From: Desulfovibrio piger
GTDB taxonomy: Bacteria; Desulfobacterota; Desulfovibrionia; Desulfovibrionales; Desulfovibrionaceae
Direction: 5' to 3'
DNA: 64,000 nt
NCBI RefSeq assembly: GCF_951793255.1
Contig: NZ_OX636706.1
Coordinates: 2,226,001-2,290,000 of the forward strand
The position numbers and the translations under genes were made by a program. Below the pieces are notes generated by a model that saw nothing but the letters and a program-made list of their open reading frames with translations, had not been told where the DNA came from and did no database searches. Below are positions 43,868-64,000 of this stretch, piece by piece. Numbering within the stretch: the first letter of the stretch is position 1; every line of letters begins with the position of its first letter.

Positions 43868-44568
43868 GACGCTTCCCCCATGACGGAATCAAACATGTTC
43901 GCGCACACTCTCCGCCAGCGCTGCAATTCCACCCGTGTGCCGATGGGCATTTCAGTCTGGGCGGCGCGGATGGACATGCGTCTGGAATACAGCCAGTCGG
44001 CCACGCGGTTGCCGACCGCCGGAAAGTCCAGCGTCCTGCCGTTCTTCTCCACCGCTTCCCGTGCCTTGGAACTGTTATACATATCAAAACGCCGCGCTTC
44101 ACCGAAATACAGATTCCGGCAAACGTGGATGGGCACGTCCGTGAATACTTCCTGAAAGGAGTGCAGAAGCTCGATGGAATCGCGGTGACGATTGATTATC
44201 CAGAAGACAACCAGTTCCCGCCGCATCTCTCGCAGAGCTTGCTTCATGATGTCGCCGTGACTGGCCGTGCTGGTCTTGGTACGGGCGGCGGCATTGATGA
44301 CCACGGCATGATCCGGGTAGTTCTGTACAGTGTCCAGCAAATCCGCCCAGCCGTCGGCGTCGTCCAGACAGTTCAGACGGCAGAGCAGATTCGGCAGGGC
44401 AAGCTCCTTGTGCGCCTTGAAGACATCAGGGTTGTCGGTATCGGTATCCACAAGCAGGACGTTTGCGTTTCTGTTGAGAAGATAGTCCACAAGGGCGAAG
44501 GAAAAGAGGCTCTTGCCGACGCCGCCCTTGCTGCCGCCGACATAGAATACGCTGTTCTGAATGTTCAT
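43864..44568 (-). CDS. ParA/MinD-like P-loop ATPase of the mobilization operon
   Basis: A 234-residue nucleotide-binding protein. The deviant Walker A GGSKGGVGKSLFSFALVDYL is at residues 10-29, followed by VLLVDTDTDNPDVFKAH, and later VVFWIINRHRDSIELLHSFQ. ATG 44568 has GGAGC seven bases upstream; a TTG at 44574 is less likely. The position between a RHH-like/TraK-like gene and a membrane protein, within the relaxase operon, suggests a role in DNA transfer or maintenance rather than chromosome partition. It differs from the backbone parA (31033). Confidence 0.7.
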   Translation of the reverse strand: MNIQNSVFYVGGSKGGVGKSLFSFALVDYLLNRNANVLLVDTDTDNPDVFKAHKELALPNLLCRLNCLDDADGWADLLDTVQNYPDHAVVINAAARTKTSTASHGDIMKQALREMRRELVVFWIINRHRDSIELLHSFQEVFTDVPIHVCRNLYFGEARRFDMYNSSKAREAVEKNGRTLDFPAVGNRVADWLYSRRMSIRAAQTEMPIGTRVELQRWRRVCANMFDSVMGEAS

Positions 44569-44570
44569 GA

Positions 44571-44942
44571 TCAAAGCTCCGAATCGGGTTTGTCCGGCGT
44601 GTAGAAGTCCGGGATTTCTTCCTGTGCGTGGGACGTGACGGGAGGAGCCGCGACGGGTTTCGCGGTTTCGGGCCGGGGCTTCGGCTCACGTTTTCGCGAA
44701 GCCGCCTTCGCGGGAAGCACCTTTGCCCTGATGACGGGCGCGGGAATGACCACGTTGCCCTGGGCCAAGATGTCCGCCAGCTCCTTCACCGTGTATCCCT
44801 TTTCAAACGCTTTCAGGATATTGGCGTTGAGCAGTTCGGCGGCTTCCTCCCGTGTCTTGCCGAGATTTTTGTCCGGCAGGTCGTCAAGGATTTTCCGCAT
44901 GGCATTGATGTCTTTCACCGGAATGCGTTTGAACTTTCCCAT
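44571..44942 (-). CDS. Small accessory mobilization protein (TraK/MobC-like length)
   Basis: A 123-residue protein: N-terminal helices (DINAMRKILDDLPDKNL ... EEAAELLNANILKAFEKGYT), then an HTH-like VKELADILAQGNVVIPAPVI, then a Lys/Pro/Ala-rich tail (SRKREPKPRPETAKP). The folded part recalls the family of small DNA-binding relaxosome proteins such as TraK, but identity is not certain. It lies between the relaxase and the ATPase on the same strand and 12 bp after the relaxase stop. Confidence 0.6.
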   Translation of the reverse strand: MGKFKRIPVKDINAMRKILDDLPDKNLGKTREEAAELLNANILKAFEKGYTVKELADILAQGNVVIPAPVIRAKVLPAKAASRKREPKPRPETAKPVAAPPVTSHAQEEIPDFYTPDKPDSEL

Positions 44943-44954
44943 GCGCGTCGCTCC

Positions 44955-46169: not shown

Positions 46170-46513
46170 GGTTCCGCCTCCGGTTCATCTTCCGTTGAGG
46201 CGCATGATGCGAACTCGATAATGCGCTGTTCGATGCCCGCCAGCGCCACCAATACCTCCACGGCTTCCGCCGCGCGTTTATAGGTGTTGGCCCATCTCGC
46301 AAGTTGATTGATGTTCGCGCCGATGCGTGCCAGTTCCCGCAACCGCCGTTTCTCTTCCGGCGTTTTCCGCAGACGGATGCCAAGGCAGGTCTGGCGGATG
46401 TACTCCGACATGCTCATGCCGTGCAGCCCCGCGTTGAGGCGGAGGATGTCGCGCTCCTCCGGGAACACACGCACGACGACAGAGGCAGTGCGAACGGGTT
46501 TGACGCGTTTCAC
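46163..46513 (-). CDS. mobC: Mobilization accessory protein MobC (MbeC-like)
   Basis: A 116-residue relaxosome protein. The N-terminal ribbon-helix-helix (ASVVVRVFPEERDILRLNAG ... MSMSEYIRQTCL) precedes the MobC signature: LARIGANINQLARWANTYK. It binds oriT and helps the relaxase nick. Its stop overlaps the relaxase start (ATGCTGA). The upstream oriT-like region supports the role. Confidence 0.88.
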   Translation of the reverse strand: MKRVKPVRTASVVVRVFPEERDILRLNAGLHGMSMSEYIRQTCLGIRLRKTPEEKRRLRELARIGANINQLARWANTYKRAAEAVEVLVALAGIEQRIIEFASCASTEDEPEAEPC

Positions 46514-47231
46514 CGCTTTCCCTGCCTTTGGGCTTTGCGGGGTTCAAAGGGGCAGCGCCCCTTGCCAGCCGTGAGGCTATACGCGCAGCGTATAGACGAA
46601 ACGTAGGCTGGCCCTCGGAGACAATGCCGGACGAGCGAACAGGCATCCGCGCAAAAACGGGGATGCATGATGCGGGCATCGGGAATGCGGCGGGTGCGTA
46701 TCGGGCGCGGCGCGGACTTGTATTCGGCGAGTCGCTGGTGGGTATACTGACGGCTCCAGATAAACATCCGACACATGAGGAGATGGTATGCGGCAAATGC
46801 CTGAACGCCATGCACAAGCCGTGTAGTCAGTATCCGACACAAGGCAAGGTCGGCATAACGCACATGACGGCGCGGACATATAAACGCTGGGCGGGCGGTC
46901 ACAGCGCATGTATGGGGAGAACTCTGCGGAGCGCAAGCCGGGGCGGCCTTATGTGCATCGTGTCCGCCGCTTGTCGGTATGCGGGAAAATTGCGGGAGGC
47001 GGAAAATGCTTTTTTGTATTGCTGCGTTTGTGTTTTTGAACAGCGGACTTCCTTTGACAGAGCCCCCGCCGGAGGCTTCCTCGTCCGTCGCCCGCAACCG
47101 TCCATAGCCGGAAAGCAAGGGCATCCTGTCAAGGCCCGCGAAGCGGCCCGACAGGGCATGGCCTTGACCGGATGACCGCTTCCGGCACCCGTGCGGGTGT
47201 GACGGACGAAAAGCCGGGGAAGAAGCGAAGT
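46514..47231. other. Non-coding region with candidate oriT
   Basis: A 718-bp gap upstream of mobC. A perfect inverted repeat CTATACGC-GCA-GCGTATAG (46577-46595) is followed by ACGAAACGTAGGCTGGCCCTC, which has the layout of MOB-P oriTs (repeat, then nic with GCCCT-like bases). A 215-codon frame on the + strand from 46528 has no ribosome-binding site and low-complexity Cys/Arg content, so I do not call it. Nothing else is recognised. Confidence 0.5.
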
Positions 47232-47435
47232 TCATTTTTCCTCCGGTTCGGCGGTGAGCTTTTCCAGAAGTGCGGCAATATCCGCCGCTCTCCACGCCGT
47301 TGTGCGCGGGCCGAGTTTGACGGGTTTCGGATAGCGGCCGCTTTTGCAGCCCGCCCACCACGCGCTGCGGCTGACGGGAATGAGCGCGAGTACCTGCGGC
47401 AAACGAAGCAGAGCGTTATTGGGTATATTTTGCAT
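47232..47435 (-). CDS. AlpA-like excisionase/regulator
   Basis: A 67-residue MerR-like HTH protein of the AlpA family: LLRLPQVLALIPVSRSAWWA, then GRYPKPVKLGPRTTAWRAAD. This is the standard pattern (RLPxVxxxxGxSRSxxY...FPxPxxLGxRxxxWxxxxI). AGGAGGAACTCC precedes the ATG. Such proteins regulate integrase genes or act as excision factors in integrative elements. It lies 276 bp from the integrase pair. Confidence 0.85.
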   Translation of the reverse strand: MQNIPNNALLRLPQVLALIPVSRSAWWAGCKSGRYPKPVKLGPRTTAWRAADIAALLEKLTAEPEEK

Positions 47436-47711
47436 GGAGTTCCTCCTGGCTGGTTATGTTCGGCACAGTATATCATGGGTTTTCCCGCTCTTTCGTTTTC
47501 GAAGTCCCCGCATACAGCGGGATAAATCCAATAGCGTCCTGTGAGATGCCGCTTGTGTTCAAAAAAATTCAAAATACAGCTTGACATGTTTTTGTGCTTT
47601 AAAGCGATATCGTGCAATATATTGAAATTACACAACTCTAACAACACATAAAAACACTGTTTGCACTGTGTTGTATTAGCCGTATTTGTCTTTTACGGAC
47701 TTCAGATGGCG

Positions 47712-48917
47712 CTATAGCATGTCATTGTCCGTCTGTGTTGCTTCGCGCAAGCCGTCCAGATAGTCGGCCCATGCCTGCATCATCTGGTGCCGCTGGGGAA
47801 GATATTGGGCATGGTTGTAGGCGAACCGGGAAGTATTCTTTTCCTTGTGGGCCAGCTGACGCTCAATCCAGTCAGGCTCAAAGCCCTGTTCATTGAGCAG
47901 GGTTGAGGCCATAGCCCGGAAGCCATGAATACACATCTCTTCCTTGCCGTATCCCATAGCGCGTAACGCCTGTAAGGGCGTGGAGTAGTGGATAGGCTTC
48001 CTCACACTGTTCCTTGAGGGGAAAAGGTATGTTCCGCCTCCGGTGACGGCGTGAAGCTCTTTGAGAATGGCAACGGCTTGTGATGACAGCGGAACAATGT
48101 GCGGCTTTCGCATTTTCATGCGTTCGGCCGGTATGTGCCATTCCCGCGTTTCCAGATTGAACTCGCTCCATTCGGAACGGACAAGTTCGGCGGAACGGAC
48201 AAAGAACAGGGGAAAAAGGCGCAGCGCGCATTTGACCTGAAAATGTCCGTGATAGTTGTCCAGCCTGTTCAGAAGCACGCCGATTTTTTCGGCGGAAACG
48301 ATGGTGGCCCTGTGCCTGCCCCGATGCGGACGTATGGCTCCGCGAAGATCGGCGGCAATGTTGCGCGGCACTCTGCCTGTGGCAACCGCATAGCGGAAAA
48401 CCATGCCGCAATACTGGATGATTCTGTGGGCGATAAGTTCCTTTCCCTTTCTTTCAAGCGGCTTGAGTATCAGCAGCAGGTCTTGCGCCGTGACCTCGGA
48501 AATGGGCTTCCGTTTCAAGGCGGGGAAAAGATAGTGTTTGAACGTGTGCAGTTTTCTCCCTCTGTCTTTTTCGGAATTGTGGACTGTCTGCGTATCGTGC
48601 CATTCACGGACAACATGCTCGAAGGTATTGGCTTCCGCGAGGAGGGCGGCGTTTTTCATCTCCTTCTTGCGTTTGCCCGGATCAATGCCGTCGGCAAGCA
48701 GCTTTTTCGCCTCATTTCGCTTTGTCCGGGCATCCTTCAGGGAGACAATCGGATATTCCCCGAAGCTGAGCAGCTTTTCCTTATCGTTGAAACGGTACGC
48801 CATACGCCAGAGTTTTGAGCCGGTTTTGGCGACATAGAGGTACAGGCCGCCGCCGTCCGCGTACTTTTTCGCTTTTTCAGCGGGCTTCAGATTCCTGATT
48901 TGCGTGTCGGTCAGCAT
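47712..48917 (-). CDS. int: Tyrosine integrase 1 (DUF4102 type, complete active site)
   Basis: A 401-residue phage-type integrase. The arm-binding DUF4102 domain (MLTDTQIRNLKPAEKAKKYA, DGGGLYLYV, SFGEYPIVSLKDAR) is followed by the catalytic domain: Arg in VRSAELVRSEWSEF, HxxR in IHGFRAMASTLLNE, the second His in LAHKEK, and the Tyr nucleophile in HAQYLPQRHQMM. AGGGAGG precedes ATG 48917, which overlaps the integrase 2 stop (ATGCTGA). It should integrate and excise the element at the TTGTAGTT core. Confidence 0.92.
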   Translation of the reverse strand: MLTDTQIRNLKPAEKAKKYADGGGLYLYVAKTGSKLWRMAYRFNDKEKLLSFGEYPIVSLKDARTKRNEAKKLLADGIDPGKRKKEMKNAALLAEANTFEHVVREWHDTQTVHNSEKDRGRKLHTFKHYLFPALKRKPISEVTAQDLLLILKPLERKGKELIAHRIIQYCGMVFRYAVATGRVPRNIAADLRGAIRPHRGRHRATIVSAEKIGVLLNRLDNYHGHFQVKCALRLFPLFFVRSAELVRSEWSEFNLETREWHIPAERMKMRKPHIVPLSSQAVAILKELHAVTGGGTYLFPSRNSVRKPIHYSTPLQALRAMGYGKEEMCIHGFRAMASTLLNEQGFEPDWIERQLAHKEKNTSRFAYNHAQYLPQRHQMMQAWADYLDGLREATQTDNDML

Positions 48918-50110
48918 GACGTACCTCCCTGACTGGATGTATCCTGCAACGCCTTGTCCCGCAGAAGAAAAAGATATCTGGCCCATTCCCGCATCATGGT
49001 TTTTCTTTCCGACAGATGCCGCCACGGGTCAAAACGTGTGCGCCCGGAGTGTGCCAGCTGCACGTCGATGATGTTCTGTTCGTACCCAAGGTCGAACAGT
49101 AATTTGGCGACAAGAGAGCGGATTCCGTCAAAGGACAGTTTTACGCCGTCATATCCGCGTCTGCGCAGGGAAACGGTGATGGTGGATATGTCGATGGGGC
49201 GTTCAGGAGAACGGACGCCGGGGAACAGCAGGGTTCCATGACCGGAGTATTCCTTCAGTTCCCTGAGTATTTTGACTGCCTGTGGCGCGAGAGGCACAAC
49301 ATGCTCATGTTTCGTCGCCATGCGTTTCGCGGGGATAACCCAGAGCCTGCGGGAGAAATCAAATTCATTCCATGCCGCACAGCGCAATTCACCGGAACGG
49401 ACGAACAGCAGGGGAACCAGCCGCAGGGCGCACCGCACAGGGAAATAGCCGTCATGCCGCTCAAGGTTCAGCATAATCTGACCGAGTTTCCCGGCGTCGA
49501 GCGCGGCGGCTCTGTGCCCTGTCTGTCTGGAACGCAGCGAAGCGGGCAGGTCTTCCGTGGAGTTCCGCGCGGTCTTGCCGGTGGCGACGGCATAGCGGCA
49601 TATCTGGCCGCAGACATCCGTCAGCCTGCGTCCTCCGCGCAATTTCCCGGATTGCCGCAACGGTTCGATGGCGCTCATAATGTCCTCGGCGGTAACGTCT
49701 GTCATGGCCTTGCCGCCGAAGACGGGAAAGAAATATTCCGTCATCCCCCGCATCATGAAGGAGCGATAGCGGTTTTTACAGTGAAGGGTTTCCCGCTCGT
49801 ACCATTCCATAGCCACGGATTGGAACGTAGCGTTGGAGGCGGATGTCCGTGCGGCCTTCCTGTGTTCCGCCGGGTCGATGCCGTCCTTGAGCAGGGCCTT
49901 GGCTTCATCCCGGCGTTGCCGTGCGGCGCGGAGTGATACCTGAGGATATTCACCGAAGGAAAGGAGCTTGGCCTTTCGCTCAAAACGGTACGCCAGCCGC
50001 CAGAGTTTTTTGCCGCTGGTCGGAATGAACAGGAACAGCCCACCGCCGTCCGCATACTTTTTCGGTTTGTCGGCGGCTTTCAAGCCTTGAATAATGTGGT
50101 CATCCAGCAT
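48911..50110 (-). CDS. Tyrosine integrase 2, lacking the catalytic Tyr and the HxxR His
   Basis: A 399-residue paralogue with the same DUF4102 N-terminus (KKYADGGGLFLFI, SFGEYPQVSLRAAR) and catalytic fold: RSGELRCAAWNEFDF keeps the first Arg. But HxxR is DGIR (SFDGIRSLVAKLL), and the Tyr position is His (DPWRHLSERKTMM aligned with NHAQYLPQRHQMM). Codons are GAC and CAT, so the Tyr change is one transition. It keeps the other segments intact over 399 codons, which argues for selection. It may act as a DNA-bending or regulatory subunit of integrase 1. It is the promoter-proximal gene, 270 bp from attR. Confidence 0.85.
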   Translation of the reverse strand: MLDDHIIQGLKAADKPKKYADGGGLFLFIPTSGKKLWRLAYRFERKAKLLSFGEYPQVSLRAARQRRDEAKALLKDGIDPAEHRKAARTSASNATFQSVAMEWYERETLHCKNRYRSFMMRGMTEYFFPVFGGKAMTDVTAEDIMSAIEPLRQSGKLRGGRRLTDVCGQICRYAVATGKTARNSTEDLPASLRSRQTGHRAAALDAGKLGQIMLNLERHDGYFPVRCALRLVPLLFVRSGELRCAAWNEFDFSRRLWVIPAKRMATKHEHVVPLAPQAVKILRELKEYSGHGTLLFPGVRSPERPIDISTITVSLRRRGYDGVKLSFDGIRSLVAKLLFDLGYEQNIIDVQLAHSGRTRFDPWRHLSERKTMMREWARYLFLLRDKALQDTSSQGGTSC

Positions 50111-50128
50111 GATTTTCTCCGTATTCGG

Positions 50129-50249
50129 GATACCCGTAAATCCCCATGAATCCAGTGGTATCAGATACCCACAAATAAAAATATTTGTAGTATTATCAAT
50201 TGACTATATGAGAATATTTCAGAATGCCAATTTGTATGGATACCCTGAA
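50129..50249 (+). repeat. Right arm-type integrase sites (GATACCC x3)
   Basis: GATACCC at 50129-50135, 50164-50170 and 50239-50245 (the last is GATACCCTGAA, matched at the left end). They lie between integrase 2 and attR, where arm sites of DUF4102 integrases are expected, and overlap the likely integrase promoter, which suggests autoregulation. Confidence 0.5.
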
Positions 50250-53200
50250 TAATACCCGGAAAACAGCGGGATGCAAGGCGCTATTTCTGGACTTCTCTGG
50301 ATGACTGTTTTAATATAACATATTGAAATATAAAATATTATAACTCTAAACAAGTCTATTTGGACGTAAAATGAGAGTTTGTAGTTTACCCCGGTGGCAT
50401 CAAGTTCCCAGCCGTTGGTAATCTGGCCGAATGTGGATGCCCAGGCATCAAAATGCTCGATGCCCTTGGCCTGCAATTCCTCATACTGCATATAACGCTG
50501 GAGCGTGTAGACTTCGGCTATCGTGTTCGATATGGGCGTGCCGGTCAGGAAGTAGACGCCGCGCCCTTCATTCTTGCGTTGCAGATAGCGGCACTTGATG
50601 AACAGATCGAGGGCCTTGGCAGAGCCGGTGATATTGCCCAGACCGGAAACATTCATGGTCGTCTGATAGGCAAGATTCTTGAATTCGTGACTTTCATCCA
50701 CAAAGAGCGCATCAACGCCCAGATCGGCAAAATCAACGGACGTATCTTTCCTGCCCGTTCCGGCCAGCAGAAGCTCATAGCGGGCCTCCATCTTTTCCCG
50801 CTGTTTCTCAAGCTGCTTGATCGTCGCCCGTCCGCCTTTGGCTTCTTTGACGGCTCCGATGGCGTCCACGACAGCGTCAATCTGCTCCTTCAGAATTTCC
50901 TGCTGAATGTCACGGGGCATGTCGATCTTGCGGAAGGAACTGTGCGCGACCACAACGGCATCCCAGTCCCCCGTTGCAATACGGGAAAACAGGCGCTCCC
51001 GGTTCTGTTTGGTGAAGTCCGTCTTGTCTGCCACAAGAATATGCGCATCGGGATAAAGCTTGTAGAACTCATCCCGCCACTGATGCAGCAGATGGTTGGG
51101 GACGACGACCATCGGCTTGGAGACAAAGCCCATGCGCTTGGATTCCATGATGGTGGCAATGCAGGCCATTGTCTTGCCCGCGCCGACAACATGATCATAA
51201 AGGGCGGTTCCTTCCTGAATGGCTCTCCAGACAACGTCCTTCTGATGCGGGCGGAGCTTCACTTCTGCGGAGGCTCCGACCAGCTCAAGGTGGGAACCGT
51301 CATAGCGGGGCGGCACATGCGTATTGAAGCGGTCATTATACAATCTGGCCAGACGCACCCGCCGGTCGTCATCCGTCCATATCCAGTCCACAAAGGTCTG
51401 CCGGATTTCATCGGCCTTTTGCATGGCAGCCGCCGTCAGCTCCTGATCCAGCTCCATAATCGGCCTGCCCTGTTCATCCCTCTGGCCGGTATCCTTCTCC
51501 ACCTTGATGGGCTTGTTCATGAGCAGGGCTTCGATAATCCTGCTTGCCGGATATTCGGGAATGCCCCAGACGCTGGTATTCAGGGCCCCGTCGGTAATAC
51601 CCACATGCGCATTCCATCTGCCGAGCGTCGGCAGATATTCCACGCGTTGAAAGCCGTGCCCGCCATGCAGATGCTCAATGAATGCGTGCACCACGTCAGG
51701 CGGCAGCCAAGTTGAGCCAAGTTTTACCCCGATATCCACGGCTTCGATGTCGGGGGGCTGCGCAGCTGTCAGGGCTTCCACATTGCTTAAAAAACGGCTG
51801 TCCGTTCTGGCGGCTTCCTGTGCCAGTCGCAACTTTTCCCGGACATTGCCGGTCAGATATTTGTCGCGTATCTCCCAGAGTTCCGTCCCAGGATTGAGAA
51901 AAATCAGCCCCTGCCCCTGCAGCTCCTGCCGCACAGTGTCGGCAGGCTTCCCAAGGAGCTGCTCCATACGGGCAAAGTCCACCTTGCCGCTTTCCCTCAA
52001 GGCAATAAGTAGCGCATCCTTGGGACTGTCGGCAGTCTGCGCTGTTTCCGCCGGTTTAAGAACGCGCTGCCGGAAGATGGCCGCCTTTCGTGCGGAAGCC
52101 GGTCTGGCGGCCCTGCCGGTCTTGCGGGCCATATCCGGGGAAATGCCCTTGTCATACTCCATTTCCAGAGATTCCAGCAGGGCATGTTCCGGGTCTTCCC
52201 GCATAAGACTTCTGTTTGTCTGGGAATTGAGATGGCCGTATTTTCTGACAAAGGTGTCATACTGCGTATTGAGCCTCTGTCGCAGCGAGGCCATGCGCCC
52301 TTCATCGCCGCTCCCCTTTTCCTCATTGAGCAGCTCGCGCACGCTGTCCCTGATTTGAATCATAGAAATCAGACGTTGCCGGGCAGACTCGCTCTTTGTG
52401 GAAACAGGTTCATAGCCGCCGTCGCCAAAGTTGCCGGAGGTCTTGAAAACGATTTTTCTGCTTCGGGGTTCGAGGCAGAATGCCCCCATTTTCAGCGCCT
52501 GGAAGTAGGCGGAGTCAATAAACTCCCGGTTCAGCGTCTGTGAGGCGGGCGCTTTTTCCTGCTGTTGCTCTCGCGGCCTGAACTGTGCCGCAGGCAGGAT
52601 CGCAAGGCGGGACTCGATCTCCTGTCCCAAATCCGTAGCGGGACTGTCTTTGACGCAGTTCAGCGCATCGGCAAACATGCCCCCGGAGTAGACCATTCTC
52701 CCGATAATCTGCTCCGGGTGTGCGGCAAAGAAGCTGTTGACGACAGCAGGCCGCCTGATGCCCTGCTTGAGGTCGTCAACCTCAATTTCTGACGTGGTAA
52801 TCCAGTCCCGGCTGCGCTTGTTTTCGCCGTTGTGCTTCTGGAAAAAGACAATATCCGTCGTAACGTCCGTCAGGGCATTCTGACGGAATGCCGTCTCCGG
52901 CAGGCGCACAGCCCCCAGAAAATCAGCCTGATCGGCAATATACTCACGGGCGGACGAGTCTGCCGCATCCATGAAATAGCGGCTGACGACAAATGCCGCT
53001 ATGCCGCCCTCACGGAGCAGCCGCATGGACTTGGCAAGGAAGTAGTTATGGATGGAAAACTTTTTCAGTTCCGGGAAATCCGGATCATACAGGGACTGCT
53101 GGCCAAAGGGCGGATTCCCTATGATGAGATCAAAGTTCGGAGAAAGAAGACCGGAAGATTGAAAGCCCTTATTGTTATGGCTTGATTTGGGATACAAATA

Positions 53201-54454
53201 GCTGGCGATAGCCGCCGTCGTGGGATCAAGCTCCACGGCCAGAAAACGCGCATTGAACTCTTCCGGGCAAAGGCCGATAAAATTACCGATGCCCGCCGAC
53301 GGTTCAAGGACATTCAGTTTTTTCCCGGAACCGACGCCCAGCCGGGAAAGTCCCTGATACATGGCCCGGATGACGGTTTCCGAAGTGTAATGCGCATCCT
53401 GGGTGGAACGGCGGGCGGCAGCATAATCACCCGGAGAAAGAATCCCTTGCAGCTCCCGATATTCTGCCGCCCACTGCTCATTCTTCGCATCAAAGACCTG
53501 CGGCAGGCCACCCCAGCCGACAAAGCGCACCAGCGTCTTCTTCTCTTCCGGGGTGGCCAGTTTTACGCCGCCAGCCTGTAGCTGTTGCAACAGGCGAATG
53601 GCGGCCACATTGTCCGCGTATTTGCTTTTTGCGCCGCCGACGCCGAGACGGTCTTCCGGCGTTATGCGGTAGTTGGCAGGTTCAGTTCCACCCCGCAGCT
53701 CTCCAGAATTTCCCAATCCGACATCCCCCTCAGGCTCGCCTGCCGGGCTGTCTCGCTGCACAGAATCCTTCTCTCCAGAGATTGCTGCTGATCGAGGCGA
53801 ATCATCAAGTCGAGATTGTCTCTCGCTTCCAGCTTCTTCAGTTCGTCCGGGCAGTTCAGCGCCCAGCGATCCAGAATCAAATAGGCTGAATTGGGAAATC
53901 CCCCCGTCTTTACTTCCTCTATTGTTTCCGGCTTGAGTACGGTTCTTGCGATGTCCAGCGGGTTTGTCGGCTTGTCCAGCATGTTGTCGCTCCAAAGAAG
54001 GGGAATGTTGTTGTCTGAAGGCTGCAACTTCCTGAATCGTCAGGAAGTTGTGGTTATTTTGCAGGAACAGTTCTTCCGGGGTGCTGCCGTCTCCGTCAAC
54101 GGTCTGCATGAATTCGGGATTACGGCTGTACATCCGTACCCCGTTTTCCATTTCATATACCGTCTCTCCGCGTCCGTTGAGGCCAAGCGGTCTCATCGTT
54201 TTCGGAGAATCGCCGAGCAGCTCGAACCAGCCTCTGGAAGGCCTGGTCTGCCTGTCTTCCTGAATGTTCTGTTGGTCTGATGCGGGAATAACGCTTGCAG
54301 GCCGCTGTTCATCCCTTGGAAAAGACGCCGACTGCGCCTCTTCCCGCATGTCATCCTGAATATTTTCTTTTCGTATCTGCTCAATATGATGCACCATCGC
54401 ATCGAACAGAGACATCTGGCGGGGATCATGGGTCTGCTTGCGTCGTCTGGCCAT
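50219..54454 (-). pseudogene. 5' part of the giant methylase-helicase gene (DarB-like), interrupted by the mobilizable element
   Basis: About 1356 native codons: a Gln-rich leader, a methyltransferase domain with motif I VLEPSAGIGNF and NPPF catalytic motif (IIGNPPFGQQ) around residues 380-470, a helical region, and helicase lobe 1 with LRPHQKDVVWRAI, Walker A HVVGAGKTMA and Walker B LFVDESHEFKN. Native sequence ends at ELDATGVNYKL at attR; about 56 residues of element-derived tail follow. With the 3' half it would be about 2000 residues, the size and domain order of large MGE methylase-helicases such as P1 DarB, which protects DNA from type I restriction. Start ATG 54454 follows GAGGGA. Confidence 0.85.
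50376..50389. repeat. attR of the integrative mobilizable element
   Basis: AGTTTGTAGTTTAC; partner of attL at 36144 (see there). It lies at the last native codons (V-N-Y-K-L) of the 5' half of the giant gene. Confidence 0.75.
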
Positions 54455-54510
54455 CACTTTCGTCCCTCAAGGCGCAGGAAGCGAAAGCGCGTGGCGCGCC
54501 CTGTCGATTC

Positions 54511-54684
54511 CTATTCGCCGGAATTCTGTCTGGGCGCGACTGTCAGCTTTGCGGCATTTTCCACAACAATGCGCCCGTTTTCTTCATAAAAAACGACTTT
54601 ATCCCCTTCCTGCACCTCAAGTTTTTTCCTGATGGCCAGGGGCAGGGTTATCTGTCCGCGAGACGTTACCTTGGCAATTTCCAT
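54511..54684 (-). CDS. AbrB/MazE/SpoVT-type transcription factor or antitoxin
   Basis: A 57-residue protein: MEIAKVTSRGQITLPLAIRK, then KLEVQEGDKVVFYEENG. This is the swapped-hairpin AbrB fold used by MazE-type antitoxins and regulators. No toxin gene is adjacent: the next gene downstream (57 bp) is the giant methylase-helicase. It probably controls its own operon. An inverted repeat ATTTTCA-T-TGAAAAT (54714-54728) lies 30 bp upstream of the start and is a candidate operator. Confidence 0.8.
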   Translation of the reverse strand: MEIAKVTSRGQITLPLAIRKKLEVQEGDKVVFYEENGRIVVENAAKLTVAPRQNSGE

Positions 54685-54769
54685 GACCTTTTCTCCCTGA
54701 ATCTTACTTAAAAGATTTTCATTGAAAATAAGATTTACAGGGAGAAAAGGCAGGTGTCAACGGGAAGGG

Positions 54770-57700
54770 TCACATCAGGGCTTCATGCAGCAGACCATGC
54801 GTAATCATCTCAACGATACGCTCCCCGGCTTCCGCATCCCCGGAACGTGCCCTGTCGGCAAGTTCCAGAGCATGGCGAAGCTGCGCTGCCGTAAAATCGC
54901 AGGCAGGGAAACGGATTCCTTGCAGCACATAGGTAGGCGTCGAAGTGATGCGGGAACGCGCGGCAAACATATCCGCGCTTACCAGCGTGGACGCCTTGCG
55001 CAGGGCGTCTCCAAAGGCTTCTGGCGCAATGGCCGCTTCCTGCAGCGCCGCTTGAAGGATGCCTTCATAGGGGGCGGGAATCCCTAGTTCCGTTCTGGGA
55101 ACAACAGCATCCCAGAACCGATGCGCGGCATTGACTGAAAAGCTGTGCAAGGCCTCATAGCAGAGCGCCTTTTTCAGGGATTCTCCATAGGCCTCTGCGG
55201 GCGCATGGCGCACCACAATGCACAGATTGATATCTTCGCGCTGTGCCCTGATGACTTCCTGAATGCCGCAGTAGGAGGTAGAGTAGGGGCGCGTTATCCG
55301 GTCTGGATGCACTACCCCTCTCTCCGAACCGTGCTTGCACCTTTCGATGCACACGGCTCTCACGGATGCCTCCTTGCTTTGGCTCGCCAATAGGGAAGGT
55401 CACGGCGGTGAAGCTCATTGTGGCAATCAACACAGAGAACCATGGTCTTTCGACGCATGGCGCACATCATTTGTTGCCACAGTTGCTTCTTTCCCTGTAC
55501 ATCCTTCAGAGCTTTAATGTGATGAACCTCCATATATCCCCCTGTTTTCCCACAATATTCGCAGGTGTTTGCATTTAATCGCTGCACCAATTCTGAACGA
55601 GTCATTGTGAATCGTGTAGTATCCCAAGGAGTATCCACATTAGAATTATGGATTTTTGGAGGTTCATGGTCTTTCAACCTGAAAAGCCTGTAGGATTTTG
55701 GAATTCCGTTGATATTTACCTTCAGTTCATATCCAGATTGAGCAGATAGTTTCATTTTACGAGCTACTTTTCCTATGGAACTCTTGTGCTTATGAGAGAG
55801 TGTTGCAAAGAAACTCCATTGGGCTAGACCAATAACTCTTTGCAGAGCTGTTTTGTAGCCTTGAGCAAGGGAATAATAATTTGCTAATCCTCTCATTTCC
55901 GCATTATATGTCATCAATATTTCCACATCGCTACGCCGTAACAATGCAGGACGACTTTTTGGGCGGAATATTGCCATATCTCCATAGCCATTTTTACTCG
56001 CGTATTGGAACATCTTTTCAGATGGAATGTGGAGCTGCATTTTTTCTGAAATTGTCCTTCGATTACAAGTTCCCTTTCCCCATGCAATTTTTGTCGTCTT
56101 TGTGCTTGTGTATGTCTTTATATCATACCCAAGAAATCTAACTCCATCATTTGCATCTGCGATACAAGTTTTCTCTTCAGACACTTCAAGCAGAAGAACA
56201 TTATTTATATATTCCTTCACTTGTAGCATTACTGATTCAGCTTCTTTGCGTGTACCAATGACTCCAATGATGAAATCATCAGCATACCTAACGTAACGAA
56301 GCCTCCTATATTCAGAGTCAACGTGTAATCTGGAATTGATAACTCGCATTTTTTTCTGTATCTCTCGGCGTTCGCGTAGTATCTCCTTGCGGGCATCATT
56401 CAAAGGTTTGCCTTCTTTGAATTTCTGCCTAAGCTCTCTAAGCTCACGATTGATTATAATCATCTGCCTACACAGCTTTTTGTAATCGGGATTATCCTTT
56501 CGTCTTTCACCTTTGTTGAATTGGCAAATCATATCTTCCATAAACGTATCAAGTTCATGAAGGTATATGTTAGCTAATATTGGTGAAATGACGCCACCTT
56601 GTGGTGTCCCACTCCATGTAGCATTGTATTTCCAATCTTGAGCGTATCCAGCTTTGAGCATTTGACGAATAATATGAATTATGCGCTTGTCATCAATCTT
56701 CTTCTCCAGAAATTCAATCATCTTATTATGATTGATATTGTCAAAGAATCCTTTGATATCAAACTCAATAATCCACTTCGTTCCGTTCCAGACGTTTTTT
56801 ACCTGTCGCAAAGCAGAATGACAGGATTTTCCCGGTCTGAATCCATGAGAATTTTCAGAGAAAATAGGCTCATAGATTTGCTCAAGAAGGATTCTGACCA
56901 CTTCTTGCACCAGTTTGTCGTCTCCGGTTGGAATACCGAGAGGACGCAACTTTCCATTCTTTTTGGGAATGTATGTGCGCCGTACAGGTTTCGGACAATA
57001 TTCACGCCTTGCCAACAGCCCAATCAAATGGTTCACCCTTTCTTCGGAGAACCCATCAAGCGTATTTCTATCTACGCCCTTTGTTATGGCTCCCTTGTTA
57101 GAGTATATGTTGGCATAGGCTTGCTTCCACAGAACTTCAGGGTTGGTCGCCAGCCTGAACAGGCCATTGACCCTTCTTCCACTCATGGAAACCTTTGCAA
57201 TGGAATTCATAGCCTTTATCGTAGTTTCTGTTCGCATTAGCGCAACCTACTTATGACTTGTAATTCCGACATCCATAGCTCCCTTCCCCCACATATTTCC
57301 GGCTTTCGTCGCATTCCTGCTTTACTTATACCGTAATTGCGGACCGATTGGATACGTTCTGCCATTGTCATTACAACATGACTTTGGGTACTACGGAGCC
57401 TCCGTTGCCATACAGGTTGTCTTTTATAACAAACCAGCTTAGGCAATCCTGTGTTTATCTGTAAGTAAAGATACGTCATGGTTAGGTGCCCTTTTCGTCT
57501 TTTCATCCCTATTGGGAAGTGCCATGAGGCAGCAAATTATGACAGATAGAATGCCAGTCCATCATATACCTCATTACAACGTCTCAATCACCTTTTCTTC
57601 GTTGTTATAGAAACCAAATATTGCTCAGACTAGGGTTCAGGCAATTCAGCTTTCACCATACATGACTTGCACTTGCATAAGACTATGACCGGTGATTGTC

Positions 57701-58103
57701 ATTCTTTGTGCCTTTTCCAGAGATGCTATGTTCACGTTCCGCTTTCGCAGTTTCAGCTTTTACAAGCACCGCTAACTCTGGCGTGCATGGAATCTATTTG
57801 CAATTCCAGGGTATTCAACCCACTTCCCTTACAAACTTACACAGCGCACCATTCAAGATTGGCCCAGTATTCGACGACTTCCCCCTGAATGCCGTCCACG
57901 GGCCTGCCGTCAAGACAGCGTCTGCCGGAAAGATCGGACAAGGCCGGAGGCGGCAGGGCCAGGTCCTTTGCAAGCTCCGTTCGTACTCCGGCCTCCACGG
58001 CAACACGATCCGACATCGGCGTTCCGGCCCGAAGCGACGACACAGGCAACACGAAAGAACAGGCAATCGCCAGTATGAACAACACATTACAGAGCGGATG
58101 CAT
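54770..58103 (-). CDS. Thiol-disulfide interchange protein (TrbB/DsbG-like), interrupted by a group II intron
   Basis: Exon 1 is 58103-57850 and exon 2 is 55277-54770. Joined they give a 253-residue frame: signal peptide (CNVLFILAIACSFVLPVSS), then VVEYWANLE, then CSYCGIQEVIRAQ, then TPTYVLQGIRFPAC near the C-terminus (the cis-Pro loop of thioredoxin folds). The active site CxxC is C-S-Y-C, and its first codon TGC is split TG/C by the intron. In IncI plasmids the trbA-trbB-trbC genes include such a protein, which folds disulfide-containing transfer proteins in the periplasm. AGGAGG precedes ATG 58103. Function depends on splicing. Confidence 0.85.
55315..55365 (-). ncRNA. Group II intron domain V (and start of VI)
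   Basis: GAGCCGTGTGC-ATCGAAAGGTGC-AAGCACGGTTC reading leftward is the diagnostic domain V hairpin with its bulge (AGC-type catalytic region), followed by GGAGAGAGGGG. It is the catalytic core of the ribozyme. Confidence 0.85.
55360..57237 (-). CDS. ltrA: Group II intron-encoded reverse transcriptase/maturase with HNH endonuclease
   Basis: A 625-residue LtrA-like protein. RT fingers-palm: RTYIPKKNGKLRPLGIPTGD, then ENSHGFRPGKSCHSAL, FDIKGFFDNI, GTPQGGVISPILANIYL, and the catalytic YADD in VRYADDFIIGVIG. Maturase domain X follows (LMTYNAEMRGLANYY). The C-terminal HNH nuclease has two Cys pairs: TCEYCGKTGGYMEVHHIKAL and CVDCHNELH. All parts are intact, so splicing and retrohoming are plausible. 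Confidence 0.95.
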   Translation of the reverse strand: MRTETTIKAMNSIAKVSMSGRRVNGLFRLATNPEVLWKQAYANIYSNKGAITKGVDRNTLDGFSEERVNHLIGLLARREYCPKPVRRTYIPKKNGKLRPLGIPTGDDKLVQEVVRILLEQIYEPIFSENSHGFRPGKSCHSALRQVKNVWNGTKWIIEFDIKGFFDNINHNKMIEFLEKKIDDKRIIHIIRQMLKAGYAQDWKYNATWSGTPQGGVISPILANIYLHELDTFMEDMICQFNKGERRKDNPDYKKLCRQMIIINRELRELRQKFKEGKPLNDARKEILRERREIQKKMRVINSRLHVDSEYRRLRYVRYADDFIIGVIGTRKEAESVMLQVKEYINNVLLLEVSEEKTCIADANDGVRFLGYDIKTYTSTKTTKIAWGKGTCNRRTISEKMQLHIPSEKMFQYASKNGYGDMAIFRPKSRPALLRRSDVEILMTYNAEMRGLANYYSLAQGYKTALQRVIGLAQWSFFATLSHKHKSSIGKVARKMKLSAQSGYELKVNINGIPKSYRLFRLKDHEPPKIHNSNVDTPWDTTRFTMTRSELVQRLNANTCEYCGKTGGYMEVHHIKALKDVQGKKQLWQQMMCAMRRKTMVLCVDCHNELHRRDLPYWRAKARRHP

Positions 58104-59862
58104 GACTGGCCTCCTGAGATATTTGAAGAAGCTGGGGGATTCGCAGCTGCGCATTTTTCAGGGGAGGATTGGCAAAGAACATATCCCCGCGAACAATCTG
58201 TCCGTTGAAGATGAAATGTGCCTCGCCTTCGATCTGCTCCTGCAAATCCCGCAGGACGACGCGGTCTTCCATCTCCACCGTTGTGGCGTTGGCATCCCGA
58301 TATTCAGGACTGATTTTTTCATCAATGCTGTAGCCGGTGGTGCGGAGAACAGTGCTTTGTCCGGCTTGTCCGCGCAGCAATTCCCAGGTTTTCTCGGCAT
58401 CCTGCATCTTCATGAAGATTTTGACGCAGGTATTGGCAACCATCTGCTGCGCCCCCTTCTGGTCAGCTTCAAGGATGCCCGCATAATCCTGACTGGCCAC
58501 AATGGCGGCGATGCCCAGCCCGCGTCCCTGAGTGAGGACAACTTCAAATCCGGGAGTGACAATGGCCGCATACTCGTCCACGATGCAGAGGTAAGGCCCT
58601 ATGCCTATGGTATCTGTGGGCAGAGACTCCAGCACATCGGCGGCATTACCTTCGATACGCGCCCCAAGACCCACGGAACAGGCATTGCGAATGGCGGAAA
58701 GACTGATTTTTCCGAGGCTCTCAAGTTCGGCGGGAGCCTTTTCCAGAGAAGGCAGGGGAACAACCAGAATCCGGCGCTGCATGATGGCATCAGCAAAGTC
58801 CACTTCTCCATCTTCCACGCCATAGATATGGGAATAGGTATCCGTCAGACTGGCCAGCGTCTTGCCGAAATATGACTGGGCGTAGCCGAACTGCTCCGCA
58901 AAGGACGGCGGCTGATCCTTCAGCTCCCGTCCGGCAATCCAGCTGGTGCTTCCCAGAGCTGCCTGAATGGAGGCGCGGGATTCCTCGTCCAGCTCCGGGC
59001 GCATGGCCAGCTCTACGCACTTTTCCAGCGTCAGCGTCTCACGGAGGACTCTGGTGGAGAGCTTGATCAAGCCCTTGTCGCGCAAATCCACCAGCGCATA
59101 CATGATGCCGGTGATCAGAGTCTGCGCCTTGTCGGCAAAGATGCTGTTTGCTCCATCCGAAACCGACATCAGGGAGACAAGAAGCTGGGTCAGGCCCTCG
59201 GCACTGCCGAATGTGAAGGGATTGTTCGTGTTTGACAGCCGTTCCGGCGTCTTATCCCGTGTTTTGCCGCTGGTGCTGTAGTTGAGAACCCGGAAATCAT
59301 CGTCACGTCCCAGAAAACGCGCCATCTGCCAGAGTTGCACAGGGAGTTTGGCGCTCGATTTGGGATCGATGTAAAAAAGGCCGCTTCCTGTGGCCAGCGC
59401 ATTGTAGGAAAGCGAGACAAGCGTTTCCGTCTTGCCGGAACCGGTTGTGCCGAACAACAGGCAGTGCGTGAGAATATCCTTGGCTTTCAGCCAGAGTTCC
59501 TGCCCGTCCTGCGTGCGATTGCCCAGAAAGAAGATTCCTTCCGGCGCAGCGTATCCGCGCCGTCCGGGCAAGGGATCGCCCCAATCCTTTCCCCTTTGTC
59601 CCAGCGGCATACGAAAGGGCAGATGCTCTCTGGGGATGGCACAGCGCCGGGCGGCAAAGAAAGCCATGCCCACACAGAAGAGCGGGATGGCATAGCCGGG
59701 AAAGAGGACAAGACACAGCCCGGCCGCACAAAGACCGCCGGTCTGAACCTGTCTCAGCTTGAGCATATCGTTCAGACGCTGCAAGGGAGAGCGCACATCC
59801 CGAAGGAGCTGTTTGCGCTCCTGGGTTTCATGATCTTCAAGACCGCGTATTTTTCTGGTCAT
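58087..59862 (-). CDS. Type IV coupling protein, DotL/IcmO/TrbC type
   Basis: A 591-residue membrane ATPase. Two N-terminal TM segments (TGGLCAAGLCLVLFPGYAIPL..., about 45-70), Walker A LLFGTTGSGKTETLVSL near 130-146, YLCIVDEYA (Walker B) near 420, and QGRGLGIAAIVASQDYAG. The EGIFFLGNRTQDGQELW start of the ATPase domain and gene order identify the DotL (Dot/Icm) or TrbC (IncI R64) subfamily rather than VirD4. It links relaxosomes to the transfer channel and could also serve the mobilizable element. It overlaps the start of the trbB-like gene. Confidence 0.85.
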   Translation of the reverse strand: MTRKIRGLEDHETQERKQLLRDVRSPLQRLNDMLKLRQVQTGGLCAAGLCLVLFPGYAIPLFCVGMAFFAARRCAIPREHLPFRMPLGQRGKDWGDPLPGRRGYAAPEGIFFLGNRTQDGQELWLKAKDILTHCLLFGTTGSGKTETLVSLSYNALATGSGLFYIDPKSSAKLPVQLWQMARFLGRDDDFRVLNYSTSGKTRDKTPERLSNTNNPFTFGSAEGLTQLLVSLMSVSDGANSIFADKAQTLITGIMYALVDLRDKGLIKLSTRVLRETLTLEKCVELAMRPELDEESRASIQAALGSTSWIAGRELKDQPPSFAEQFGYAQSYFGKTLASLTDTYSHIYGVEDGEVDFADAIMQRRILVVPLPSLEKAPAELESLGKISLSAIRNACSVGLGARIEGNAADVLESLPTDTIGIGPYLCIVDEYAAIVTPGFEVVLTQGRGLGIAAIVASQDYAGILEADQKGAQQMVANTCVKIFMKMQDAEKTWELLRGQAGQSTVLRTTGYSIDEKISPEYRDANATTVEMEDRVVLRDLQEQIEGEAHFIFNGQIVRGDMFFANPPLKNAQLRIPQLLQISQEASHASAL

Positions 59863-59871
59863 AGAGCCACC

Positions 59872-61170
59872 TCAGTACTGTTCCTGCGCCAGAGTCTGAT
59901 CTTCATTAGCGTCATATTCGGGATCGTCTTCGGCTTTGGAAAAAACGATTTCCGGCAAGGATGCGTCATGGGCGCCGGACATGGGAGGAATGAAAATCTC
60001 CGTCAGCCAGCCCTGGGCATTGAGCGCCGCCCTGAGACTGTGCACGACAGCGGCCACATGCGGCTCGGAAAGAGCCTGTCCGGCCTGTTCTTCCGCATGG
60101 TAATGCGCCCATGCGGCAGCCCCTTCCATCATGGCCGTGCGTCCCCCGCATTGGCAGAGCGCATACCAGAGGGGCCGATCCAGCGGACGCAGCCAGAGAA
60201 ATTGCGAATTGGCCAGCACCCCCTTGCGCCGTGCGCGGTACAGCAGGGCCATGAACCACGGCAGTTCAAAGGCCGCATGGCGGGAAAGGCAGCGCTCGGA
60301 GAGCAGCGCGTTATGCCGCTCCCAGAGTTCTTTCAAGCGATACTGGAAGGTTTTCTTTTGCAGAATGGAGCACGTCGCCCACTCTCCTTTTTCGACGTAG
60401 GACAGGGACATGGCATCCAGAATGGAGACACCGCTTTTTTTGTCCCCACCTGCGTATGCCAGAAACGCAACGGCCAGAGCCTGGCGGCATGGCGCAAGTT
60501 CCGCATAGTTCTCAAACGGTTTACCGAGTTGCGCCCGCAGCACCTCAAGCGTTTTTGCCTCGTCCAGACGGGCATTGCCCCAGACGGGAAGTTCCGTATC
60601 CGGGAGTCCGTCACGCAAGCCCTGTTCGGGGGAAAACGGCTGTCCGTCCGCATCAAGCAGCAGCCCCTGCTCCAGCGCAAACTGGCCAGGCGTGCGGGCA
60701 ATACGCCACAGTCCGCTATCAAAGGATTTCTGTGAAAGCAGATAGCTGCCACGCTCGACAACAGGCCACAGACAGGGGAAGGAGGCCGCATTGTTCTTCA
60801 GCAGACGATTCATGTTGAAACGACGAACAAGACGCCCGACACGGTCATGGAAAAAGACATGCAGGAAGCAAAGGGCAAGAATCAGTGCCAGCGGCCAGCG
60901 TATCCAGGAAGCGGAGTAATGCAGGATATGCCGCATTTGCTCCCAGTTCAGCGATGCCGGGTCTATGTCAGACAAGCGGGCGAGGGCTGTCCGGGCTTCT
61001 TCCGAAAAAGGCGCAAATATCTTGACCTGCGCCAGAGCCAGACGGAGCAGCGGCCCGTTGATACTGCCGCAGTGAGCAGCATACAATCCCGGAATGACGA
61101 CACAGAACAGAATAAGCAAGGCGCAGCACAGGAAGAGCAGATCATCCCTGTTATCGGAAGGCTGACTCAT
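59872..61170 (-). CDS. DotM/IcmP/TrbA-like transfer protein
   Basis: A 432-residue protein with AGGAGG before ATG 61170. TM helix LLFLCCALLILFCVVIPGLYAA, then a second near residue 100 (WPLALILALCFLHVFFHDRV), then a soluble domain (FALEQGLLLDADGQPF ... YGRKGVLANSQFLWL-type region). It forms the coupling subcomplex with DotL in Dot/Icm and IncI systems (TrbA-TrbC). The gene order DotM, DotL agrees. Its start overlaps the stop of the transglycosylase gene (ATGA). Confidence 0.8.
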   Translation of the reverse strand: MSQPSDNRDDLLFLCCALLILFCVVIPGLYAAHCGSINGPLLRLALAQVKIFAPFSEEARTALARLSDIDPASLNWEQMRHILHYSASWIRWPLALILALCFLHVFFHDRVGRLVRRFNMNRLLKNNAASFPCLWPVVERGSYLLSQKSFDSGLWRIARTPGQFALEQGLLLDADGQPFSPEQGLRDGLPDTELPVWGNARLDEAKTLEVLRAQLGKPFENYAELAPCRQALAVAFLAYAGGDKKSGVSILDAMSLSYVEKGEWATCSILQKKTFQYRLKELWERHNALLSERCLSRHAAFELPWFMALLYRARRKGVLANSQFLWLRPLDRPLWYALCQCGGRTAMMEGAAAWAHYHAEEQAGQALSEPHVAAVVHSLRAALNAQGWLTEIFIPPMSGAHDASLPEIVFSKAEDDPEYDANEDQTLAQEQY

Positions 61171-61685
61171 GGGCGCGCCTCCTGAAGGGATGGCAACATG
61201 GCAATTCCCCGGTGATGCAGCTTCTCCAGATTGGCCCGTACCCGCGCCATATAGGCATCCCGGTGATGGGGGGTTCTGGAGTGATATGCGCCGATGGCCT
61301 GCCAGATGTCTCCGGTACGCAGGTATTCCCTGCGCAGCAGCCAGGCTGCCGCATACGCATTGACGCAGCCGTCCTGAAGGACGGCTTCCGGGGCGATGCC
61401 CATTGCCGCCAGCGTATCGACATGAACCGTATTGACTTGAAACGGTCCCATATCCCATGTGCCATTGGTGTTGCGCAGAGCTTCGCCCGTCTTGCCGCCT
61501 TCTGTCGCAAGGATGCCAAACAGCGCGGCTGCAGGCAGACCTCCGGCACGGGCCGCATCAAGAACGCAGGCCGCCGTCAAGGGGCGTGTCTGCGGTAACG
61601 TGACTCTGGCGCGTTCGGCGGCACAGGAGATGCCCGCCAGGAAGCAAAGGGCCACAAGCGAAAAAAGCATGGCCGGCACCTTCAT
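61167..61685 (-). CDS. Lytic transglycosylase (SLT-type) of the transfer operon
   Basis: A 172-residue secreted protein with signal peptide LFSLVALCFLAGISCAAERA. SLT fold: FGILATEGGKTGEALRNTNG with the catalytic Glu, then WDMGPFQVNTVHVDTLAAMG, and AIGAYHSRTPHHRDAYMARV. It is comparable to PilT/TrbN-like pore-clearing enzymes of conjugation systems. The genes on both sides overlap by 4 bp, so it belongs to one tightly coupled operon. Confidence 0.85.
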   Translation of the reverse strand: MKVPAMLFSLVALCFLAGISCAAERARVTLPQTRPLTAACVLDAARAGGLPAAALFGILATEGGKTGEALRNTNGTWDMGPFQVNTVHVDTLAAMGIAPEAVLQDGCVNAYAAAWLLRREYLRTGDIWQAIGAYHSRTPHHRDAYMARVRANLEKLHHRGIAMLPSLQEARP

Positions 61686-62101
61686 TTGAGGCCCCCTTTC
61701 AGCTGGAGGAGAAATTCTCCGCTTGTGCCATAAACCTTGAAGGGGTTGTTACCGCCGATGCCGTTGACGCTGTTGAGCACCTGATTGTGGGCGTCATTGA
61801 CTTTCTGCTGGATCAGGGAATCCACCTGATTGCACATGCCCTCGATAAGCTGTTCTATGCCCGGCAGAGTGACGCCGAGATTGAAGGCATCGCCAATGTC
61901 ATTGACGCAGTCCAGACAGGTAGCCAGAGGTTTTCGTTCGGACTCAGGATCAGGAACAAGGGTGTTGTAGACATCCGTAATGCGCCCGTTTCGCTGCTGC
62001 ATGGCCGTGCCTGCAACGTCCTGAACATCCTGACACGACGAGGCAGGACAAGGAGAGGCGAAGGAAAGGCAGAGGACAGAAAGGAGAAGAATGCGCTTCA
62101 T
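61682..62101 (-). CDS. Small secreted conjugation-associated protein
   Basis: A 139-residue protein. ATG 62101 (GGAGCAGGAA upstream) opens a signal peptide MKRILLLSVLCLSFASPCPA. The mature part has Cys pairs (SSCQDVQDVAG, LATCLDCVND, GMCNQVD) and amphipathic helices (IEQLIEGMCNQVDSLIQQKV). Disulfides may need the nearby TrbB-like protein. No family is recognised. It overlaps topB and the transglycosylase gene. Confidence 0.6.
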   Translation of the reverse strand: MKRILLLSVLCLSFASPCPASSCQDVQDVAGTAMQQRNGRITDVYNTLVPDPESERKPLATCLDCVNDIGDAFNLGVTLPGIEQLIEGMCNQVDSLIQQKVNDAHNQVLNSVNGIGGNNPFKVYGTSGEFLLQLKGGLK

Positions 62102-64000
62102 TTCCTGCTCCTTTTTTTCGTGTCGGGAGCGCCATTTGCGCCGACAGGATAGATTTGCTTGCAGGCGGGATAGCCCGAACAGCCAAAGAACTCGCCTTTT
62201 GCACCTGTCCGCAGTATCAGCGCCCTGCCACAAACGGGGCAGACATGTTCAGATAGTACCGGTCTGGCCCTGGGAGTGCCGGGTTTGCCCTTGTCATCGG
62301 GCAGCAGACGCTTGCAGGCCGGATAGGCGGAGCAGCCCCAGAACCATGAGCCGTCTTTTTTGCTTTTGCGGCGCAGAAGGGCCGCGCCGCAGTCCGGGCA
62401 GGGATAAAGCGGCTTCTGTTTACGCTCCAGAATCGGGGCCAGCAGTTCGGGCAGAATGCGCTTCTGCTCCTCAAGGAAGAATTCCAGAGATTCCTTTCCC
62501 TGCGCTATGGATTCCAGTCGCTCTTCCCAGGCGGCTGTGGTGACGGGGTCTTTCAGCGCCGGGGGCGTCAGGTCGATGACTTCTCTTCCAAGAGGCGTGG
62601 AAACAAGCGATTTCTTCTCAACAGCCAGATAACCGCGTTCCTTCAGGGTTTCGATGATGTTGGCGCGAGTGGCTTCTGTCCCGATGCCATTGCTGTCCCT
62701 GAGTGTGGCTTTTGCCCGTGCATCCTGAACATGGCGATGGACATTGGCCATTGCCTCAATCAAACTTCCTTCTGTAAATCTGGAAGGCGGAGCAGTCTTT
62801 TTGAGCACGCTTTCCGCAGTGTCACACCGCACGCCGTCCCCCTGTTCCACCAGAGGAAGAAGGGGCTGTTCCTGCGCATCTTCGTCTTCCTGCTCTCTGG
62901 CAAAGGCCGTCCACCCGGCTTCCAGAAGACGGCGTCCCGTGGCTTCCCAGCGGGTATCTCCAAGAGCAACCACGATTTTCTGCGATTCATGGCGCATGGG
63001 AGGATGAAATTGCAGGCAGAAGGCTGTGGCGATCAGCAAAAACAGAGAGCGTTCATCCCCGGAGAGCTGTTCCGGGCATTCGCCGGTGGGAACAATGGCA
63101 TGATGCGCTGTTACCTTCCGGGTATTCCAGACAGCACTTTTTCTTTTGCCGTCCGCCTTGCCCGCGCACTGTTCCAGACCCGGAATCGAGGCCAGTGCCT
63201 TCAGGACTCCGTCAGCTGCCTCAAACTGCTCCTCCGGTAGATACCGGCAGTCAGTTCTGGGGTAGGTGGTCAGCTTTTTTTCATAAAGGGATTGGGCGGT
63301 ATCAAGGACGCGCTTCGCGGACATGCCGAACCGGGAAGAGGCGGCCTTTTGCAGCGAAGACAGAGAGTGCGGCAAGGGAGCGGGAGTGCTTTTCTTCTCC
63401 CGCAGGGATTCCAGAATAGTCCCCTGTACCCCATTGACCTGCTCAATGATGGATGCAGCCTGTGATATGTCCACAAGACGTCCGGCGTCATCCAGCCCGC
63501 CCTGTGTTTCAGAAGGCATAAAGACGGCTGAGAAGTTGCCGCTGGCATGAGCAAGCCCGACGCGCAACACGAAATAATCCGAGGGGGTAAAACTGGCGAT
63601 TTTCCTGTCGCGACCAACGACCAGCGCCAGTGTGGGCGTTTGTACGCGCCCCAGGGACAGCACTTCCGCTCTCCCGCTTTCTCTGCCCGAAATGGTCAGG
63701 GCACGAGTGGCATTCATGCCCACCAGCCAGTCGGCCAGCATCCGGGCGCGTGCGGCATCCCGCAACGGGGCGTTGGGCGCATTGTCCCTGATATCGTTCA
63801 GCGCGATACGAACAGACTTGTCATCAAGAGAGGGAAGCCAGATACGGAACACTGGGCCGCGATAGGCGAAATGTTCAAGCACCTCGTCAACAAGAAGCTG
63901 CCCTTCGCGATCCGGATCACCGGCATTGACAACGGCAGCCGCGTCACGCAGCAATTTCCCGATGAGCTTGAGCTGGGCAGCCGCCTTTTGCTTGACGACA
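62098..64000 (-). CDS. topB: DNA topoisomerase III, 5' part outside window
   Basis: 634 residues of a type IA topoisomerase are in the window; the N-terminal TOPRIM part begins before it. NAGDPDREGQLLVDEVL is the TOPRIM DxDxE-like region, and LTTYPRTDCRYL carries the catalytic Tyr. ALSISGRE-type repeats (NATRALTISGRESGR) mark the TopB fold. The C-terminus has two zinc-ribbon modules: CPDCGAALLRRKSKKDGSWF and CPVCGRALILRTGAKGEFFG. Plasmid and ICE TopB enzymes decatenate or relax transferred DNA. The frame runs off the right edge. Confidence 0.92.
   Translation of the reverse strand, partial: VVKQKAAAQLKLIGKLLRDAAAVVNAGDPDREGQLLVDEVLEHFAYRGPVFRIWLPSLDDKSVRIALNDIRDNAPNAPLRDAARARMLADWLVGMNATRALTISGRESGRAEVLSLGRVQTPTLALVVGRDRKIASFTPSDYFVLRVGLAHASGNFSAVFMPSETQGGLDDAGRLVDISQAASIIEQVNGVQGTILESLREKKSTPAPLPHSLSSLQKAASSRFGMSAKRVLDTAQSLYEKKLTTYPRTDCRYLPEEQFEAADGVLKALASIPGLEQCAGKADGKRKSAVWNTRKVTAHHAIVPTGECPEQLSGDERSLFLLIATAFCLQFHPPMRHESQKIVVALGDTRWEATGRRLLEAGWTAFAREQEDEDAQEQPLLPLVEQGDGVRCDTAESVLKKTAPPSRFTEGSLIEAMANVHRHVQDARAKATLRDSNGIGTEATRANIIETLKERGYLAVEKKSLVSTPLGREVIDLTPPALKDPVTTAAWEERLESIAQGKESLEFFLEEQKRILPELLAPILERKQKPLYPCPDCGAALLRRKSKKDGSWFWGCSAYPACKRLLPDDKGKPGTPRARPVLSEHVCPVCGRALILRTGAKGEFFGCSGYPACKQIYPVGANGAPDTKKRSRK

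Follow-up and report, generated by a model that had tools for sequence, protein, structure and literature searches.

Group II introns in conjugation genes are a known kind of element. Ll.LtrB, a group IIA intron of the ML class, resides in the ltrB relaxase gene of plasmid pRS01 of Lactococcus lactis and reduces both the expression of its relaxase and the conjugation of the plasmid (PMC6003770). Another gene on which conjugation depends is trbB of the IncI and IncM plasmids: its deletion abolishes conjugation of pCTX-M3, and R64 requires it for efficient transfer (PMC6112013). Here we describe a group II intron in a trbB-like gene, found in a window of 64,000 nucleotides from Desulfovibrio piger (NZ_OX636706.1, positions 2,226,001 to 2,290,000), which is a new and recently mobile member of this kind; no report of it was found in open-access papers. 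We are highly confident in the reading that an LtrA-like intron retrohomed recently into a target of ~20 nt lying over the W..LEC codons of the trbB-like gene, where splicing and mobility are what we infer from the sequence.

An earlier note on this DNA had placed an intron in the first Cys codon of a CxxC motif; the coordinates it gave, 54770-58103, delimit the interrupted gene as a whole (Table 1). Exon 1, which shares 17 nt with the end of the trbC-like gene, starts with an ATG at 58103 and ends in ...CTTGAATG at 57850, while exon 2 begins with CTCCTACTGCGGC and closes with a stop at 54770. As read, the junction is GAATG/GTGCG...CTCTAC/CTCCTACTGC, so that the intron splits the Cys85 codon between its second and third bases (phase 2), in agreement with that placement. 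The claim that the frame is restored also held: joining the exons yields one open, stop-free frame of 253 codons, whose protein reads ...YWANLE-C-S-Y-C-GIQE... around the junction. As an unspliced message would give only a truncated protein lacking the CxxC, function would need exact splicing, as the earlier note had maintained.

The boundaries are corroborated by an empty site. In a second species of the same genus (genome G181, locus L031), a near-identical conjugative element carries the trbB-like gene without the intron. Positions 6566-12715 of L031 match window 57850-63999 at 97.5% and positions 1664-6565 match window 50376-55277 at 94.4%, with the alignment breaking exactly at 55277/57850, the intron ends. 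The insertion is therefore precise, with nothing duplicated or lost. No intron interrupts the trbB-like homologues of other genomes in the genus and of one additional genus (49-92% identical, that of G181 being the closest), and all of them keep E-C-x-[YF]-C-G; the same insertion site, which the earlier note had proposed to look for in other TrbB genes, is not interrupted in any of these homologues. Because this exact empty site is accompanied by a second intron copy elsewhere, identical at 2571 of 2572 positions, chance is excluded; we confirm that a group II intron lies within the trbB-like gene and that its boundaries are correct to the single base.

Table 1. Features of the interrupted gene, the intron and the neighbouring transfer genes (window coordinates).
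Feature	Position	Strand	Remarks
trbB-like exon 1	57850..58103	-	codons 1-84 and the first two bases of Cys85
trbB-like exon 2	54770..55277	-	last base of Cys85, then S-Y-C-G, up to the stop
Group II intron	55278..57849	-	2572 nt; 5' GTGCG, 3' CTCTAC
Intron-encoded protein, 625 aa	55360..57237	-	RT (YADD), maturase domain X, HNH endonuclease
Domain V (catalytic hairpin) and two preceding bases	55326..55361	-	RF00029; folds alone
Domain VI	55278..55325	-	folded with bulged A at -7
Candidate EBS1, CAUUCUA	57547..57553	-	intron nt 297-303; hairpin loop; inferred
Candidate EBS2, AUAUUUG	57615..57621	-	intron nt 229-235; inferred
Candidate delta, GG	57554..57555	-	directly before EBS1; inferred
trbC-like coupling ATPase gene (DotL/TrbC type)	58087..59862	-	NF041447 E 4.8e-86, below its cut-off; Pfam TraG-D_C
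trbA-like gene (DotM/IcmP)	59872..61458	-	PF23127 E 9.8e-44
trbN-like lytic transglycosylase	61167..61685	-	PF01464, NF010463

Genes resembling trbN, trbA and trbC lie upstream of the trbB-like gene in the same direction, the trbC-like gene in the same operon, so that the order trbN-trbA-trbC-trbB, known from the trb region of the IncI and IncM plasmids, is common to this locus and to R64 and pCTX-M3. The coupling ATPase (trbC) and DotM (trbA) genes adjoin, as for TrbB of an IncI-type type IV secretion system. The spliced protein itself has no match in Pfam or NCBIfam and, against plasmids, nothing at 1e-5 (one 30% match at 5e-3); it thus differs from plasmid TrbB in lacking a detectable sequence match, while its CxxC and TPT motif, invariant among the trbB-like homologues, suggest a thioredoxin fold. 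A profile of seven homologues matched protein disulfide isomerase 4n30 weakly (E 0.0096, residues 78-202), and one family member gave sub-threshold matches to Pfam DSBA (0.022) and Thioredoxin_4 (about 0.02). From gene order together with this weak fold evidence, the product is likely a TrbB-like thiol-disulfide protein.

An island interrupts another gene of the surrounding element. Window 36151-50376, a stretch of ~14.2 kb, is missing from the near-identical G181 element and cuts a helicase/methylase gene (truncated ORF 50219-54457); it contains two tyrosine integrases, a relaxase, a ParA-like ATPase, type I restriction-modification genes and an IS200-like transposase. The trbC-like genes of loci L059 (genome G045) and L060 and L061 (both G181) are broken near codon 365, in L059 and L060 with a tyrosine integrase like those of the window island beside the break. 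L059 additionally has ParA- and relaxase-like genes. This suggests an island family whose members enter these conjugative elements at their transfer genes. Between the trbB-like and helicase/methylase genes, a small frame at window 54500-54690 (minus strand) resembles, by eye, an AbrB/SpoVT-type protein.

The intron-encoded protein, whose gene lies in domain IV as is usual for group II introns, passes TIGR04416 with 309.7 bits (cut-off 300) and matches RVT_1, Intron_maturas2 and HNH. Among solved proteins LtrA is the nearest, aligned over the full length with 423 bits compared to 160 for the next. The intron is probably LtrA-like, of the mitochondrial-like, IIA class; a chloroplast-like IIB assignment was dropped once LtrA had proved to be the nearest solved protein. 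Searches of genome contigs returned only distant Bacillaceae relatives of the protein (37-38%), viral contigs contained no match to it, and the intron DNA had no match among phages.

On the RNA side, Rfam RF00029 matches 55278-55361 with 63.6 bits (cut-off 40; E 3.6e-10) and ends on the last intron base. The unpaired A of domain VI, at window 55284, is likely the branch point; group II introns are expected to bulge this base 7-8 nt from the 3' end, and the intron ends, GTGCG and AC, conform to the group II pattern 5' GUGYG / 3' AY. Candidate EBS1, EBS2 and delta are arranged in the order described for IIA introns, in which delta adjoins EBS1 (PMC4424553). The candidate delta pairs with exon 2 bases +1/+2, which are CU at trbB and CC at the second insertion site, in genome G045, and the candidate EBS2 pairs at 7/7 positions with the G045 exon and 5/7 with the trbB exon. 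Over all three elements, 13/16 pairs form at trbB and 16/16 at G045; a random window position reaches 13 of 16 with a frequency of 0.0007, which serves as a consistency check only, as the EBS stretches were picked post hoc, after the exons had been seen. At -6, -8 and -12 the trbB exon does not pair with the candidate EBS1/EBS2, which may mean that splicing is weak or that the EBS assignment is partly wrong. Folding of the whole-intron D1 was no better than that of shuffled sequences (z -1.26), and we therefore claim no D1 architecture from energy.

To determine where else the intron occurs, 79 genomes of the genus were searched. Besides the single copy in the window genome, it is found only in G045, another species, where the sole difference between the two copies is a synonymous change. 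There it interrupts an ADP-forming acyl-CoA-synthetase-like gene in frame and in phase 0 (GKYGM/PVTRE); relatives of this gene (52-53% identical) are uninterrupted. At the threshold applied, the window's genome lacks this gene, and trbB in turn finds no match in G045. Upstream of the insertion, 15/19 bases are common to the two sites (ACTGGGCnAATnTnGnATG/C; binomial P about 4e-6, for a pattern derived from the same two sites on which it is tested, the only two known), and the +1 base is C at both. The agreement reaches as far as -19, past the EBS pairings, which would be expected of a target that the intron protein also reads; the window genome contains no other good match to the common target. 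Since the same intron thus occupies a common target in two unrelated genes, at different codon phases, its position at the CxxC is best read as ordinary homing, with the target sequence deciding the place of insertion. The better pairing of the G045 exon with the candidate EBS suggests that trbB may be a secondary site, and the presence in G045 of a related, damaged conjugative element makes a conjugative vehicle for the intron plausible. In genomes G242, G230 and G061, the intron DNA matched only in short pieces, with no full copies. One of these, at 2939-3104 of L028 (G242), is a stretch of 166 nt, 78% identical to intron nt 62-227, with no matching intron protein nearby in the fetched stretch; it may be a remnant, or else a relative that lacks an ORF.

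By analogy with established group II introns, we propose that the intron ribonucleoprotein would recognise the upstream target bases through EBS1/EBS2 and its protein, and +1/+2 through delta, and would move by reverse splicing into DNA followed by target-primed reverse transcription. It would have entered the trbB-like gene of this IncI/Dot-type conjugative element by chance of sequence, through either retrohoming or low-frequency retrotransposition to a similar site. Maturase-assisted excision from the trbCB message would then restore the 253-aa protein. Alternatively, the insertion could be a dead end, unspliced here and effectively a knockout of trbB. The exon mismatches to the candidate EBS would fit this, as would the 14-kb island in another gene of the element, and so recent an event would have left too little time for visible decay; however, both exons, the maturase gene and domains V/VI are intact, as is the G045 copy in another gene, and we consider a dead end unlikely.

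We also asked whether the intron regulates conjugation, with splicing efficiency setting the TrbB level and, through it, transfer frequency, as Ll.LtrB does with its relaxase. The dependence of pCTX-M3 and R64 transfer on trbB (PMC6112013) and the lowering of relaxase expression and conjugation by Ll.LtrB (PMC6003770) are in its favour, and the latter makes an effect on conjugation plausible here; the coupling of conjugation to splicing conditions put forward in the earlier note is speculative. But the near-identical G181 element has no intron, so the intron is no constant component of how the element is controlled, and there is one recent insertion; this role, too, is improbable. Somewhat less probable again, by analogy, is a brake on the conjugative element that would depend on splicing of the intron and work via an oxidoreductase required for assembly of the transfer machinery. 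If it did, transfer would be balanced against intron spread, as proposed for Ll.LtrB, at a different step.

Mobile introns commonly sit over conserved codons, and the target within the trbB-like gene covers the conserved codons W80, E84 and C85. The earlier note had gone further, stating that the intron lies in the most conserved site and is thereby protected from loss; however, the 26-nt window around the insertion ranks 90/733 in nucleotide conservation (10 homologues), and many residues besides Cys85 are invariant. That the intron was selected at the CxxC, where only exact excision would be tolerated, or was favoured there for that reason, is very improbable despite the split invariant codon, and was rejected after the G045 copy was found: that copy shares the ~20-nt target but falls between two codons of an unrelated gene, no other trbB homologue has the intron, and protection from loss would hold for any intron in any needed gene.

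Among plasmid-borne group II introns, those of Sphingomonadaceae and Escherichia (for example NZ_CP101723.1 and NZ_CP019954.1) encode the nearest plasmid proteins (44-46% identical over 98%), but the two inspected lie between annotated genes, whereas the present intron lies inside one. With the insertion described here, the transfer genes that harbour group II introns come to include a second kind, one encoding a TrbB-like oxidoreductase. It also offers a clean natural pair, one intron with one difference in 2572 nt in two unrelated genes of two species, alongside a near-identical element without it; together these indicate recent movement between genes and species, define a usable target sequence and could allow an effect on conjugation to be tested outside the lactococcal system. 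Like Ll.LtrB, the intron encodes an LtrA-like protein with RT, domain X and HNH, is located in a conjugation gene, has a candidate EBS1 hairpin with an adjoining candidate delta, and appears directed to its target by sequence. It differs from Ll.LtrB in that its host is a trbB-like rather than a relaxase gene, its target is unlike and its phylum another; the two proteins align over their whole length yet are divergent, and the present case is read from sequence alone.
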